Source: an uncultured Eubacteriales bacterium (lineage in GTDB: Bacteria > Bacillota > Clostridia > Oscillospirales > Oscillospiraceae). Taken from it: a stretch of 52,826 nucleotides of DNA. This document shows, piece by piece, positions 35,388 through 39,073 of the stretch. How positions within the stretch are numbered: the first letter of the stretch is position 1; every line of letters starts with the position of its first letter. Below the pieces are notes generated by a model, which was not told where the DNA came from, did not search any database, and worked only from the letters and a program-made list of their open reading frames with translations. The stretch spans positions 1 to 52,826 of the forward strand of contig ONVI01000008.1 of the NCBI GenBank assembly GCA_900321275.1. The letters are read 5' to 3'. A program made the translations under genes and the position numbers.

Positions 35388-36203
35388 TTACTTGATGGAG
35401 ACGATGCCGGCGCCGGTCTGCTCGTTGAAGGTTTCGACTGCACCGTCCTGCAGGGCCTCTACGAGAGCCTTGATCTCGGGACGGTTTTCATCACCGCGGC
35501 GGACGGCGACGAGGTTGGCATAGGTCTGGGCGGCGTTGCCGGCAGCATCCTCGATGGCGAGCGCGTCGGTGGTCTTGAAGCCCGCATTCAGCGCGTAGTT
35601 GTAGTTGATGACGGCGATGGTGCCCTTGGGGCTGTTGGTAAGCAGGGAGGGAACAGCGTCAGCCTGGGCGGCCTGAACGGTGTAGCCCTTGGCGTCCTTG
35701 ATGTCGAGTACGGAGGGGGCAGTCTCAACGGAGGCGTCCTCGGGCAGCTCAATCAGGCCCTCCTGCTGGAGCAGAAGCAGTGCGCGGGTCTGGTTGGAAA
35801 CGTCGTCGGGAACCAGAATGGTAGCGCCCTTCTCCAGATCCTTGAGATCCTTGAGGGTGGTGCTGTAGATGCCCATCGGCTCATAGTGGACGAGGCCGGC
35901 GGAGACAAGGTCGGTGCCGTTGGCTTCATTGAAGCTGTTCATGTAGGGGGCGTGCTGGAAGTAGTTGGCGTCCAGGGTGCCGTCCTGCAGGGCAGTGTTG
36001 GGCAGCACGTAGTCGTCATAGATCACGATATCGAGCTTGATGCCCTTCTCTTCGAGCTTGGGCTTGACGATCTCAAGCAGCTCGCCGTGGGGGGTGGAGC
36101 TGGCGCCGATCTTCAGGGTGACGGGAGCATCGGCGGCAAAGGCGGCGGCGGAAAGGCTTACAAGCAGAACCGCGCAGAGGATCAGAGCGAGTGTCTTTTT
36201 CAT
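35388..36203 (-). CDS. metQ: D-methionine-type ABC transporter substrate-binding protein, without lipobox
   Basis: This 271-residue NlpA-family protein captures methionine for MetNI: KIGASSTPHGELLE, then YFQHAPYMNSFNE, and the conserved end QTGAGIVSIK. Residues 1-23 form a signal peptide (KK, hydrophobic core, AAAFA). The only Cys is Cys10 inside the hydrophobic core, so there is no usable LxxC lipobox. Gram-positive MetQ proteins are normally lipoproteins, so its retention at the surface is unexplained. ATG 36203 is chosen because it exposes the signal peptide and follows an AGGAGAA-type site. It is the last gene of metNIQ. Confidence 0.92.
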   Translation of the reverse strand: MKKTLALILCAVLLVSLSAAAFAADAPVTLKIGASSTPHGELLEIVKPKLEEKGIKLDIVIYDDYVLPNTALQDGTLDANYFQHAPYMNSFNEANGTDLVSAGLVHYEPMGIYSTTLKDLKDLEKGATILVPDDVSNQTRALLLLQQEGLIELPEDASVETAPSVLDIKDAKGYTVQAAQADAVPSLLTNSPKGTIAVINYNYALNAGFKTTDALAIEDAAGNAAQTYANLVAVRRGDENRPEIKALVEALQDGAVETFNEQTGAGIVSIK

Positions 36204-36231: not shown

Positions 36232-36912
36232 TTACTTTGTGATACGTTTATCGGTGCGGTGCGCAATGGCAGTCCCCACCTCCTGAATAATCTGGACGAT
36301 TATTACAGTCAGAAAAACACAGATCCACTTGATATCGGGATTGAAGCGCTGGTGGCCGTAGCTGATGGCGATCTGGCCGAGACCGGTGCCGCCGATCGTG
36401 GAGGACATGGCGGAGTAACCCAGAATGGTGACCATGGAGATCACCGCGCCCATGATGAGCGAGGGCCGGGCCTCCGGCAGGAGCACCTTGGTAATGATCT
36501 GGAAATTGTTCGCGCCCATGGACTGGGCGGCCTCGATCACCCCGGCGTCGACTTCCTTGAGGGAGGATTCCACCATACGGGCGATGTACGGCGAGGCCGC
36601 GATCACCAGCATGACGATCATGGCTTTGTTGCCGAGGGACGTGCCGACGATGAAGTTTGCCACCGGCAGCATGGCGACCATCAGGATGATAAAGGGAATG
36701 GAGCGGAAAAAGTTCACGATGATGCCCAGCAGGCGGTTGAGCCAGTGGATGGGACAGATGCCCTCACGGTCGGTGATGTTGAGGATCACACCCAGCGGCA
36801 GGCCGATCACATAGGAGATCGCGGTGGAGATCACGGTCATATAGATTGTCTCCCATACGCCGCGCTGGAGGATTCCGGCGTCCCAGAGCTTGTAAAAAGT
36901 TTCGGAGAGCAT
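36232..36912 (-). CDS. metI: Methionine ABC transporter permease
   Basis: This 226-residue inner membrane permease has about five hydrophobic helices and the EAA loop EAAQSMGANNFQIITKVLLPEA that contacts MetN. The motif GGTGLGQIAISYGHQRF near the C-terminus is typical of MetI. ATG 36912 shares one base with the metN stop (TGATG), so the two are coupled. Confidence 0.95.
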   Translation of the reverse strand: MLSETFYKLWDAGILQRGVWETIYMTVISTAISYVIGLPLGVILNITDREGICPIHWLNRLLGIIVNFFRSIPFIILMVAMLPVANFIVGTSLGNKAMIVMLVIAASPYIARMVESSLKEVDAGVIEAAQSMGANNFQIITKVLLPEARPSLIMGAVISMVTILGYSAMSSTIGGTGLGQIAISYGHQRFNPDIKWICVFLTVIIVQIIQEVGTAIAHRTDKRITK

Positions 36913-37901
36913 CAGGCTTCCTCCTTCCATTTGACCGGGCTGTTCTTGAGCCAGGACATGACCTTGGCGGCCTGGTTCTCGTCGGTGGGCAGCTCGATGA
37001 TCATGTGACCGTAAACGATGCCGTCAAAATCCTTCGTGTCGGCGAACATGATGTTGACCGGCGTCTGACAGTCAAGGGTCATTCGGGAAATGACCGGCTC
37101 CTTCGACTGCATACCGTCAAAGATCAGGCGGATCTTCTTGCCGCCGCTGGTTTCAAGCGCGGCGCGGTCCTGGGGAAGGATAAGCTCCCGCGCGATCTGC
37201 GACTTGGGATTCGTAAACACGTCGCTGACGCGGCCCTCTTCGGCGATACGGCTCTGATCGATGACGGCGACGCGGTCGCAGATCTGGTCGATGACCTTCA
37301 TCTCGTGAGTAATGACAATGATCGTGACGCCGAGCTCCTGATTGATCCGACGCAGCAGCTCAAGGATCGAGCGGGTGGTGTTCGGGTCGAGAGCGGAGGT
37401 GGCTTCGTCACAGAGGAGGTAGCGCGGATCGGAAGCGAGGGCGCGGGCGATGGCGACGCGCTGCTTCTGGCCGCCGGAGAGCTGTGCGGGATAGGCGGCG
37501 GCCTTCTCTTCAAGTCCGACCACCTTCAGAAGCCCCAGCGCTTTCTCACGTGCTTCCTGGCTTCCGACCCCGGCAATCTCCAGCGGGAAGGTGACATTCC
37601 GAAGAACGCTGCGCTGTTCCAAAAGGTTGAAGCCCTGGAAGATCATGGAGATCTTCCGGCGCATTTTCAGAAGCGCGGCGCGGGGAAGCGTGGTAATATC
37701 CTCGCCGTCGATGATGACGCTGCCGGAGGTCGGACGCTCCAGAAGATTGATGCAGCGGACGAGCGTGCTCTTGCCCGCGCCGGACAGGCCGATAATCCCG
37801 AAAATTTCGCCGTCCTGTATGGTGAGATTGATGTCCTTCAGCGCTTCCACATCGCCGGAGGCGGAGGAATAGGTTTTACACAGCTCTTTCAGTACGATCA
37901 T
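36912..37901 (-). CDS. metN: Methionine ABC transporter ATP-binding protein
   Basis: This 329-residue ATPase has Walker A GLSGAGKST, signature LSGGQKQRVAIARAL, Walker B YLLCDEATSALD and the H-loop THEMKV. The C-terminal region (about 255-329) is the NIL regulatory domain, where methionine binds to cause transinhibition in characterised transporters. The start is ATG 37901, with GAAAGGAAT upstream, just after the leader terminator. It is the first structural gene of metNIQ, controlled by the Met-rich leader. Confidence 0.95.
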   Translation of the reverse strand: MIVLKELCKTYSSASGDVEALKDINLTIQDGEIFGIIGLSGAGKSTLVRCINLLERPTSGSVIIDGEDITTLPRAALLKMRRKISMIFQGFNLLEQRSVLRNVTFPLEIAGVGSQEAREKALGLLKVVGLEEKAAAYPAQLSGGQKQRVAIARALASDPRYLLCDEATSALDPNTTRSILELLRRINQELGVTIIVITHEMKVIDQICDRVAVIDQSRIAEEGRVSDVFTNPKSQIARELILPQDRAALETSGGKKIRLIFDGMQSKEPVISRMTLDCQTPVNIMFADTKDFDGIVYGHMIIELPTDENQAAKVMSWLKNSPVKWKEEA

Positions 37902-37920
37902 TGGATGGGATTCCTTTCGG

Positions 37921-37963
37921 AAAAAGTGAAAAGGCCCGGAAAACTCGTACAGCTTTCCGAACC
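37921..37963 (-). terminator. Attenuator terminator of the metNIQ leader
   Basis: On the minus strand GGTTCGGAAAGCT (37951-37963) pairs with AGTTTTCCGGGCC (37933-37945) around a 5-nt loop, giving a 13-bp stem with some G.U pairs. TTTTCACTTTTT follows. It lies between the leader ORF and the metN ribosome-binding site. A weaker hairpin, TGATTG/CAATCA (37964-37985), immediately precedes it. Confidence 0.85.
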
Positions 37964-38007
37964 TGATTGAATACCGAAACAATCAAATGGAGAAAAGATC
38001 TGACGAG

Positions 38008-38088
38008 TCACTTTTGGGCGCGCATCATCATGCGCATGCCGCACATGCACATCCCCATCATCATGCTGTTGAGGGTGTTGAAACGCAT
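38008..38088 (-). CDS. Methionine-rich leader peptide of metNIQ
   Basis: A 26-codon ORF encodes MRFNTLN followed by SMMMGMCMCGMRMMM and RAQK, then TGA. Ten residues are Met and two are Cys. AAAGGAG (38099-38105) lies 10 nt before the ATG, and a perfect consensus promoter lies about 34 nt upstream. A strong terminator follows before metN. The stretch around the stop codon (38003-38015) can pair with the U-tract side and loop of that terminator, a possible antiterminator. The simplest reading is ribosome stalling at Met codons when charged tRNA-Met is scarce, which allows expression of the methionine importer. No SAM riboswitch or T-box features are visible in this leader. Confidence 0.87.
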   Translation of the reverse strand: MRFNTLNSMMMGMCMCGMRMMMRAQK

Positions 38089-38121
38089 CGTGACCCGGCT
38101 CCTTTCCTACAGGATGTCTGC

Positions 38122-38150
38122 ATTATAGACCCGCCCCGCCCCACTGTCAA
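38122..38150 (-). promoter_or_regulatory. Consensus promoter of metNIQ
   Basis: A perfect TTGACA (38145-38150) and a perfect TATAAT (38122-38127) have a 17-base GC-rich spacer. The -35 box lies in the loop of a 9-bp dyad (38133-38141 and 38154-38162), which could be an operator or the terminator of the upstream gene. Confidence 0.92.
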
Positions 38151-38162
38151 GCAGGGCGGGGC
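38133..38162. repeat. GC-rich inverted repeat around the metNIQ -35 box
   Basis: GCCCCGCCC (38133-38141) and GGGCGGGGC (38154-38162) are perfect arms with a 12-nt loop containing the -35 hexamer. No T-run follows on either strand. Confidence 0.6.
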
Positions 38163-38245
38163 AGATTCATGAATTTAACCATGCAAAGCGGCAAAGCGCT
38201 TTCACATTCCTGAGAATTTGCACAAAATGTTGAAACGGGCAGGAA

Positions 38246-39073
38246 TTACATGTAATGGCAGCGTAAATAATCCACAATCAGCGCGATGCCGGCCGCGGCA
38301 ATGCTCCGGCCGTCCGGTGTAAGGAACTCGTCGGAGAGGAAGCCCTGCTCATCGTTGACGATGGCGGCAATGTCGGCATAGTAAGCGCCGGTGTCGGTGC
38401 AGACCTGTCTGATCCAGCTGTTGGCGCTCGCGATGAGCTGGGGACTCAGCCCGTCGCCGCCCTGATAGTTGGAGCTGATAGAGCCGATGGAGCAGACAAT
38501 GATGTTGGTGCTGGGGGAGGCTTCGCGGATGCTGTTGATCAGCCGCGTATAGCCGTCTGTAAACTCCTGCTCCGTCGTATCGGCCAGCCCGTCGCCGCCG
38601 AGGTACAGAAGCACGGTGCGCGGGCGGGTGACCATGGCGGCGTTCGACGGCGTGATGAGCGACCCGTCCACAAAGACGATGGGCGACTCCGCCGCATTTT
38701 TCGCCATGAGGCCGCTGCCGTCATCCGTCCAGATCTGCGCGTTGACGCCGTCGCCGTAGTTGGTGACGTAGCTGCGCAGCCCCATCAGGGTCTTGTCAAG
38801 GAGGAAGGTCATGCCGAAAACGTCTTCCAGATTGCCCTTCTTCGTCTCGGGAACCGGCATGAGTTGGTTCGCTGTCGACTCAAGCCCGGCGAGATCGACG
38901 TCAACCGGTTTTTCACCGCGCTCGATATGTCCGAGAACAAGTGTCCCGTCCGCCCTGTTCCCGGTGTTTTTCTGGGACATGGCAAAAATCAGCGCGACCA
39001 GCATCGCCACCAGGCACAGCAGGATCCCCACCGCCCAGAGCAGATTGCGCGTATTGGACGCCCGGTTTTTCAT
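38246..39073 (-). CDS. Membrane-anchored SGNH-hydrolase-like protein lacking catalytic motifs
   Basis: This 275-residue protein has one N-terminal transmembrane helix (about 12-32) and an extracytoplasmic domain. The fold resembles SGNH/GDSL proteins: a VLLYLGGDGL strand, EFTDGYTRLINSIREASPSTNIIVCSI, and a late TPDGRSIAAAG segment. The nucleophile block GDS is not present (the equivalent region reads FLLDKTLMGLR), and the late Asp-x-x-His lacks its His. It may bind, not hydrolyse, cell-wall sugars or esters; this is inference. The ATG has GGGAGG upstream. Confidence 0.6.
   Translation of the reverse strand: MKNRASNTRNLLWAVGILLCLVAMLVALIFAMSQKNTGNRADGTLVLGHIERGEKPVDVDLAGLESTANQLMPVPETKKGNLEDVFGMTFLLDKTLMGLRSYVTNYGDGVNAQIWTDDGSGLMAKNAAESPIVFVDGSLITPSNAAMVTRPRTVLLYLGGDGLADTTEQEFTDGYTRLINSIREASPSTNIIVCSIGSISSNYQGGDGLSPQLIASANSWIRQVCTDTGAYYADIAAIVNDEQGFLSDEFLTPDGRSIAAAGIALIVDYLRCHYM

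Follow-up and report, generated by a model that had tools for sequence, protein, structure and literature searches.

The window studied here, the whole 52,826-nucleotide stretch of contig ONVI01000008.1 from an uncultured Oscillospiraceae bacterium, encodes on its minus strand a predicted MetNIQ-type importer, and the operon is preceded, in this order, by a promoter, a Shine-Dalgarno sequence (SD), a methionine-rich open reading frame (ORF) and an intrinsic terminator. A sequence-only reading of this DNA had proposed ribosome-mediated attenuation that senses charged tRNA-Met. The features, listed in the direction of transcription, are as follows.

38145..38150, minus strand: -35 hexamer TTGACA
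38122..38127, minus strand: -10 hexamer TATAAT, 17-nt spacer to the -35 hexamer
38099..38107, minus strand: SD GGAAAGGAG of the leader ORF; AAGGAG columns at least 90% conserved in the alignment of relatives
38090..38097, minus strand: R1 CGGGTCAC, lying between the SD and the start codon; possible partner of R2
38008..38088, minus strand: Met-rich leader ORF MRFNTLNSMMMGMCMCGMRMMMRAQK, followed by a stop codon; 26 codons, 10 Met, 2 Cys
37992..38011, minus strand: switch segment R2 GTGACTCGTCAGATCTTTTC, sharing bases with the stop codon of the leader; alternative partners R1 and R3
37942..37958, minus strand: R3 GGAAAGCTGTACGAGTT, formed by the upper 5' arm, the loop and the first 3'-arm bases of the terminator; antiterminator partner of R2
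37932..37964, minus strand: intrinsic terminator hairpin, 14 pairs, 5-nt loop
37921..37931, minus strand: T-rich tail of the terminator
36912..37901, minus strand: metN, ATPase with NIL domain (Pfam PF00005, ABC_tran; PF09383, NIL)
36232..36930, minus strand: metI, permease (Pfam BPD_transp_1)
35388..36203, minus strand: metQ, NlpA/MetQ-type lipoprotein (PF03180), start codon chosen by us

The perfect promoter noted by the sequence-only reading is borne out, with both hexamers matching the consensus (12/12 positions, 38150-38122, minus strand) across the 17-nt spacer, and so is the 26-codon ORF with ten Met codons, two Cys codons and a good ribosome-binding site. The terminator before metN is likewise present, with 14 pairs by our count and not the 13 first given. 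The ORF is enriched in codons for the regulated amino acid (10 Met in 26 codons), and its translation is predicted. Among ORFs of 15-60 residues starting with ATG, the best in the window has 10 Met, against 4-7 in each of 60 dinucleotide shuffles, and the motif ATGATGATGNNNATGTGYATG occurs once in the window with an expectation of 0.00. The leader is structured (z = -2.75); within the window, the folding energies are -21.9 kcal/mol for the antiterminator region taken by itself and -20.9 kcal/mol for the terminator. On the plus strand, 37987-38172 reads as an open frame rich in His (HHHAHAAHAHPHHH), which is the complement of the Met codons and probably a mere mirror of the ATG triplets; the five neighbouring genes tested all lie on the minus strand, opposite to this frame.

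As the earlier reading had it, metN follows the terminator (start at 37901, minus strand), and metI and metQ come next. MetI is the only one of the three proteins to score above its NCBIfam cut-off (NF008049 MetI, 214.3 bits, cut-off 212). The best match of MetN is TIGR02314 MetN at 359.2 bits, below the cut-off of 499.7, and the best name for MetQ is the MetQ/NlpA subfamily at 128 bits, below 228.85. Since MetN and MetQ fall short of these cut-offs, the substrate of the importer is only presumptive. In the operons of L071-L075, L108, L110, L113 and L118, a MetQ/NlpA-like lipoprotein has its halves swapped relative to the MetQ of the window, matching residues about 126-269 first and then 23-125. 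For L108 and L118, Pfam gives two PF03180 stretches with the second half of the profile first, and the arrangement looks like a circular permutation.

Conservation of the leader peptide

Homologues of MetN at E <= 1e-90 were found in 69 of 101 genomes of the same genus. A Met-rich ORF followed by a terminator stands upstream of 47 of these 69 loci, as had been expected of relatives from the window alone, with 12 loci carrying a T-box and 10 neither device. The leader test was 7 Met in 18 residues, and one locus (L011) was added at a lower threshold of 6. Alignment A1 holds 46 of the 47 leaders (L041, near a contig start, was left out), and alignment A2 the 43 distinct peptides. By script, promoter-like matches were found ahead of the leader for 43 of the 46 relatives; the three misses include L045, which is cut by a contig end, and L076, where the match lies outside the stretch searched.

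The reading frame is kept in all 46 aligned leaders, insertions and deletions included. The distinct peptides hold 7-12 Met each, and their alignment has four invariant columns, all of which are Met; three further columns are Met in 42, 42 and 37 of the 43. Between the Met columns the residues vary (Y/C/R/H, C/F/M/L, G/R/S/C/N), and this pattern of invariant Met with changing residues in between fits the prediction of codon sensing. Cysteine is also frequent, occupying alignment position 21, before the last Met run, in 38/43 peptides and position 18 in 22/43. The Flavobacteriia leaders described below are rich in both Met and Cys, and MetNIQ-type importers may carry other sulphur amino acids. 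The device might thus sense cysteine, or Cys and Met together, which we consider unlikely: the window peptide has Arg at position 21 and is left with two Cys codons only, Met codons outnumber Cys codons, and no invariant column is anything other than Met.

The same Cys before the last Met run, together with the residues behind it (Ala in 41/43 peptides, Gln in 36/43), could instead mark a nascent-chain arrest peptide, in which the conserved Cys and R/C-A-Q would stall the ribosome on a ligand (methionine, SAM or translation stress) and not on codon starvation. The conserved R/C-A-Q residues are indeed beyond the needs of Met sensing; the Ala-Gln stretch is also a nearly fixed spacer between the Met run and R2. 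An arrest peptide is quite improbable in view of the changing residues between the Met codons and of the leaders from other genera, where the C-terminal part differs (e.g. FRRVQNG, RRRALN) while the Met richness stays. Moreover, stalling on abundant Met would presumably free R2, the wrong sign for an importer.

Alternative pairings and ribosome geometry

Three pairings compete in the RNA: the terminator R3:R4, the antiterminator R2:R3, and R1:R2. Across the 46 sequences, the counterpart of the terminator helix (12 pairs counted) has 92.0% of its cells paired, against at most 61.6% in slid versions; 10 of the 12 pairs are doubly changed, and each of five covariation measures lies above at least 497 of 500 shuffles. 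For the antiterminator R2:R3, 82.1% of cells are paired (slid versions at most 53.0%) and 38 cells are changed on both sides, compared with 15.6 in shuffles, while two covariation measures do not rise above the shuffles, namely doubly changed pairs (5 vs 4.7) and pair types (14 vs 16.9). The pair counts for the antiterminator thus give a mixed picture that is favourable for the most part. The best R2:R3 duplex lies between -8.9 and -18.0 kcal/mol in 46/46 sequences. The mean cognate R1:R2 and R2:R3 duplexes of the 46 sequences are stronger than all 10,000 permutations; these permutation and shuffle controls ignore relatedness, apart from the thinned sets of 26, 17 and 10 representatives, in which 0, 0 and at most 2 of 20,000 permutations were as strong. 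For the 10 representatives, which share less than 65% identity, the numbers of permutations reaching the cognate strength were 1 and 2 in 20,000, and a control segment from the Met run had no effect (3358, 4934 and 3734 of 20,000). The R1:R2 pairing is absent or weak (above -5.5 kcal/mol) in five of the 46 (L012, L013, L042, L047 and L049).

Outside the ORF, the recurring stretches are the pairing arms, plus the SD and the spacer bases adjoining the ORF, and the stretch separating the stop codon from the terminator is variable among relatives, both in how long it is and in its bases. The sequence-only reading had suggested that AAAAGTGA, around the leader stop codon (38015-38003), pairs with the terminator loop (37948-37944) and the U-tract (37929-37922). 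Both complementarities are present in the window. The loop part, extended into the 5' arm of the terminator, recurs in relatives; pairing of AAAAGTGA with the U-tract is not regarded as the conserved antiterminator, most relatives carrying other bases there (e.g. AAAAACATGACTCG).

R2 (alignment column 126) follows the final codon column of the Met run at a distance of 15 nt in 36/46 leaders, with a range of 10-16; in the window, the last Met codon and the R3-pairing part of R2 are 13 nt apart. In 32/46 leaders the stop codon comes 24 nt after R2 begins; in five it overlaps the beginning of R2, as it does in the window, and nine leaders are intermediate. With the ribosome footprint length used for this geometry, a ribosome awaiting Met-tRNA would leave R2 free, and one at the stop codon would cover R2 or have passed it. 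Judged by these distances, the layout of Met run, R2 and stop codon is the classic arrangement of attenuation.

Distribution of leaders, T-boxes and riboswitches

The sequence-only reading saw neither a SAM riboswitch nor a T-box in the leader, and the Rfam searches agree. No family reached its gathering score within the window, and a permissive search of 37850-38250 gave only two snoRNA matches (E 0.46 and 0.9). The window leader matched none of the Rfam SAM families and had no match to the T-box model RF00230, the same model that finds T-boxes before metN in 12 relatives. Known riboswitches and T-boxes were accordingly rejected, for the window at gathering scores and for 37850-38250 at permissive settings too. 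A new kind of ligand-binding riboswitch or T-box, with the Met codons incidental, could be argued from the structured leader (z = -2.75) and from the use of T-boxes at some metN loci of the genus; we hold it to be highly improbable, given the lack of any Rfam match even under permissive settings, the restriction of conservation outside the ORF to pairing arms and SD or spacer bases, and the variable stop-terminator spacer. A reading of the Met-rich ORF as a common small gene or a product of chance, with a terminator that simply closes a transcript from upstream, is compatible with the single window taken alone and can practically be dismissed, the ORF having its own promoter directly upstream, the best Met count in 60 shuffled windows being 7 vs 10, the motif expectation being 0.00, and frame, spacing, pairing and downstream gene being conserved in many species.

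The T-boxes before metN (L046 and L058-L068) comprise ten above the RF00230 gathering score of 93 bits and two just below it (92.1 and 89.0). At the thresholds used, the 46 leader loci searched (all of the 47 but L009) gave no T-box; the search covered 68 of the 69 metN loci, part of them at E <= 0.01 and part at gathering scores only, so that weak T-boxes could be missed. The three T-boxes inspected carry GAAC-AUG in the specifier region, a stretch that we take to be the specifier. A motif quoted in the excerpts consulted of PMC5794164 supports this assignment.

Among the loci with neither device, L071-L075 have a metQ-like gene directly upstream of metN, L040 lies at a contig end in a genome that has a leader (L126) near another contig end, and L048, L051 and L052 show nothing recognisable upstream of metN, neither leader nor T-box. 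L054 is a degenerate leader, with promoter, start codon and terminator retained and the Met run lost. Retention of the Met run in relatives, one of the tests named by the sequence-only reading, holds for 47/69 loci; L054 is the one case among the 69 that this reading had named as refuting, and other loci have neither device. On a quick MetN tree, the distribution of leaders and T-boxes needs at least three state changes, and if only the starred branches are trusted, the T-box needs two. L046, with a T-box, falls inside a leader clade, and L069 and L070, with leaders, stand beside the T-box group. SAM-I riboswitches occur elsewhere in 55/61 same-genus genomes (at L264, the single locus examined with Pfam, the riboswitch precedes metK), giving three devices around one nutrient in one genus: SAM-I riboswitch, T-box and leader peptide.

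Searches with the peptide profile matched 57/101 genomes of the same genus and 10/300 of the family, in seven genera including its own (both searches include genomes that built the profile), 2/394 of the order (one besides the window's own), and in the class only the window's own (1/245). Of 13 further leader places in the genus, 11 have metN or metQ downstream, with L120, L124 and L128 containing just part of the operon, and L126 and L127 end after 441 and 73 nt. In six other genera of the family, related leaders precede met transporter genes; at each of these seven loci metN or metQ lies downstream, arranged as metN-metI or metQ-metN. Within the genus itself, L116, L117, L118, L119, L121, L122 and L125 have such a leader on another, divergent operon of the metNIQ type, behind which lies a presumed M20-type amidohydrolase gene (gene families were tested for L116 and L118, the amidohydrolase family for L118 only); a modified or acylated sulphur amino acid may be what this operon transports.

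In another family of the order, a Met-rich leader and terminator (L246:1492-1815, plus strand) precede an ORF, cut by the locus end, that we assign to metY because its best NCBIfam match is the O-acetylhomoserine sulfhydrylase TIGR01326 (474.8 bits, cut-off 495.1). This leader has its own pairings (R1:R2 at -18.1, R2:R3 at -16.9, plus the terminator), and its place before metY indicates that the device is not confined to transporters. A pattern scan of contigs gave at least 117 Met-rich stretches, 114 of which were parsed in frame. Among the matches listed, 52 have metN, metI or metQ within 3.5 kb downstream, two more (L210 and L235) are this leader truncated where the locus stops, six are of the Flavobacteriia type and 54 are other Met-rich matches (including L132, L136, L196 and L238). 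The clostridial leader, again among the matches listed, occurs in Oscillospiraceae/Ruminococcaceae, other clostridial MAGs and Candidatus Limivicinus, and many of the clostridial MAGs listed bear gut or rumen names.

In Flavobacteriia, leaders rich in Met and Cys (e.g. MRTTCNLMMTMCMDMMCMRHMTNYCQNRRI) are followed by a terminator and then metY (L131, L173, L209, L211, L217, L244, L266-L272, L274, L277, L279, L280 and L283; downstream gene families were tested for L131 and L209). Here, the YCQN or YYQ codons pair with the loop and 5' arm of the terminator. A search of the genus Flavobacterium matched 18/199 genomes at E <= 0.1. Of the 18 Flavobacterium loci read (L284 left out), 12 have a Met-rich ORF and a terminator followed by one and the same ORF, identified as metY by its N-terminal sequence, and six were without a Met-rich ORF. 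A family-wide search with the Flavobacteriia profile returned only the centre genome (1/199). At L131, L173, L209 and L217, a SAM-II riboswitch lies on the opposite strand near the Met leader, which suggests that a divergent met gene would be under a different sensor. The Flavobacteriia device is apparently a Met attenuator independent of the clostridial leaders, judged by phylum, regulated gene and surrounding sequence.

Proposed mechanism and related systems

The anatomy, its conservation, the competing pairings, the spacing, Met as the conserved residue and the downstream genes are all read directly from the DNA. We propose, with a probability of about 0.88, that the leader is a ribosome-mediated transcription attenuator that senses Met via charged tRNA-Met and controls metNIQ. 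The layout, found again in dozens of species, the coevolving alternative pairings and the near-fixed distance between Met run and switch support what the sequence-only reading had put forward. In the model, RNA polymerase would transcribe the leader while a ribosome begins the Met-rich ORF. When Met-tRNA is ample, the ribosome would pass the Met codons onto R2 and block R2:R3, whereupon the R3:R4 terminator would form and transcription would end before metN. When Met-tRNA is short, the ribosome would stall in the Met run with its front edge ending right before the R3-pairing part of R2; the R2:R3 antiterminator could then form ahead of synthesis of the terminator's 3' arm, and transcription would continue into the importer genes. 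With no translation, or once the ribosome has gone, R2 would pair with R1 upstream of the start codon, leaving R3 free to terminate and also blocking new initiation. Leader translation, stalling, the direction of the response and the role of R1 are thus predictions of the model. Among the points against it, R1 may recapture R2 behind the stalled ribosome, and a shortage of Met should also make ribosomes start more slowly on the leader ORF.

As Met serves for initiation too, the clostridial leader might couple two inputs. Elongation stalled on Met codons would free R2, and the R1 lock beside the SD would terminate a non-initiating leader, so that the importer would open only when Met is short but translation still starts. 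The joint proposal, that Met-codon attenuation arose at least twice independently (before metNIQ and metY in Oscillospirales-type clostridia and before metY in Flavobacteriia) and that the clostridial form has this two-input coupling, is tentative, and we regard it as somewhat more likely wrong than right.

The enteric attenuators trp, his, leu, thr and ilv combine a short ORF rich in the regulated amino acid with 1:2, 2:3 and 3:4 pairings and a terminator. The window leader resembles them in its amino-acid-rich ORF, alternating pairings, intrinsic terminator and matching operon. It differs in sensing Met, which is also the start residue of every protein, and in placing R1 upstream of the start codon, by the SD, and not within the peptide-coding part. 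T-boxes read the tRNA directly, without translation, and their output is termination or read-through. The Met T-box leaders of Firmicutes (RF00230) share with the window leader the operon, the probable signal (tRNA-Met charging) and the output, and replace the leader in relatives.

According to the parts of the literature consulted, leader-peptide attenuation where a T-box is usual has been described for other amino acids, namely the Leu-rich attenuator of ilv-leu in Staphylococcus aureus (PMC5794164) and the His leader peptides of Firmicutes that stand in place of T-boxes (PMC2965389, PMC9413887), and the window leader is like them in this respect. For Streptomyces lividans, the sections consulted of PMC8079986 propose a Met-containing leader peptide, metL, before metNIQ; it has 29 residues, three Met (MSTTSDRTPATEATTTPGARCMCRRMCAF), a leaderless start and no typical Rho-independent terminator. 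The operon is the same; those sections give no pairing or comparative evidence for metL, whereas the clostridial leader has 7-12 Met and a conserved switch. The sequence-only reading named no described Met leader of this kind for clostridia; the idea as such has a precedent in the S. lividans proposal (PMC8079986). The open-licence literature gave no clostridial or flavobacterial Met leader, subscription papers lying outside this scope, so that novelty is not proven; none appears in the parts consulted of PMC7366714, PMC8632094, PMC10219788 and PMC9373788.

Leader-peptide attenuators are known for many amino acids, and the usual explanations for methionine control in Firmicutes are SAM riboswitches, T-boxes or proteins. 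The features that look new are the use of Met in this phylum, the lock next to the start site of the leader, the exchange of leader and T-box, and a likely case of convergence in Bacteroidota. A Met leader poses a puzzle, as the ribosome is to report a shortage of Met though its own start needs Met. The changes between leader and T-box on the MetN tree make the genus a good natural experiment in regulator replacement, and the peptide profile and RNA layout can be used for annotating uncultured gut and rumen bacteria. Taken together, a gut clostridium appears to decide on methionine import through the translation of a peptide packed with methionine.
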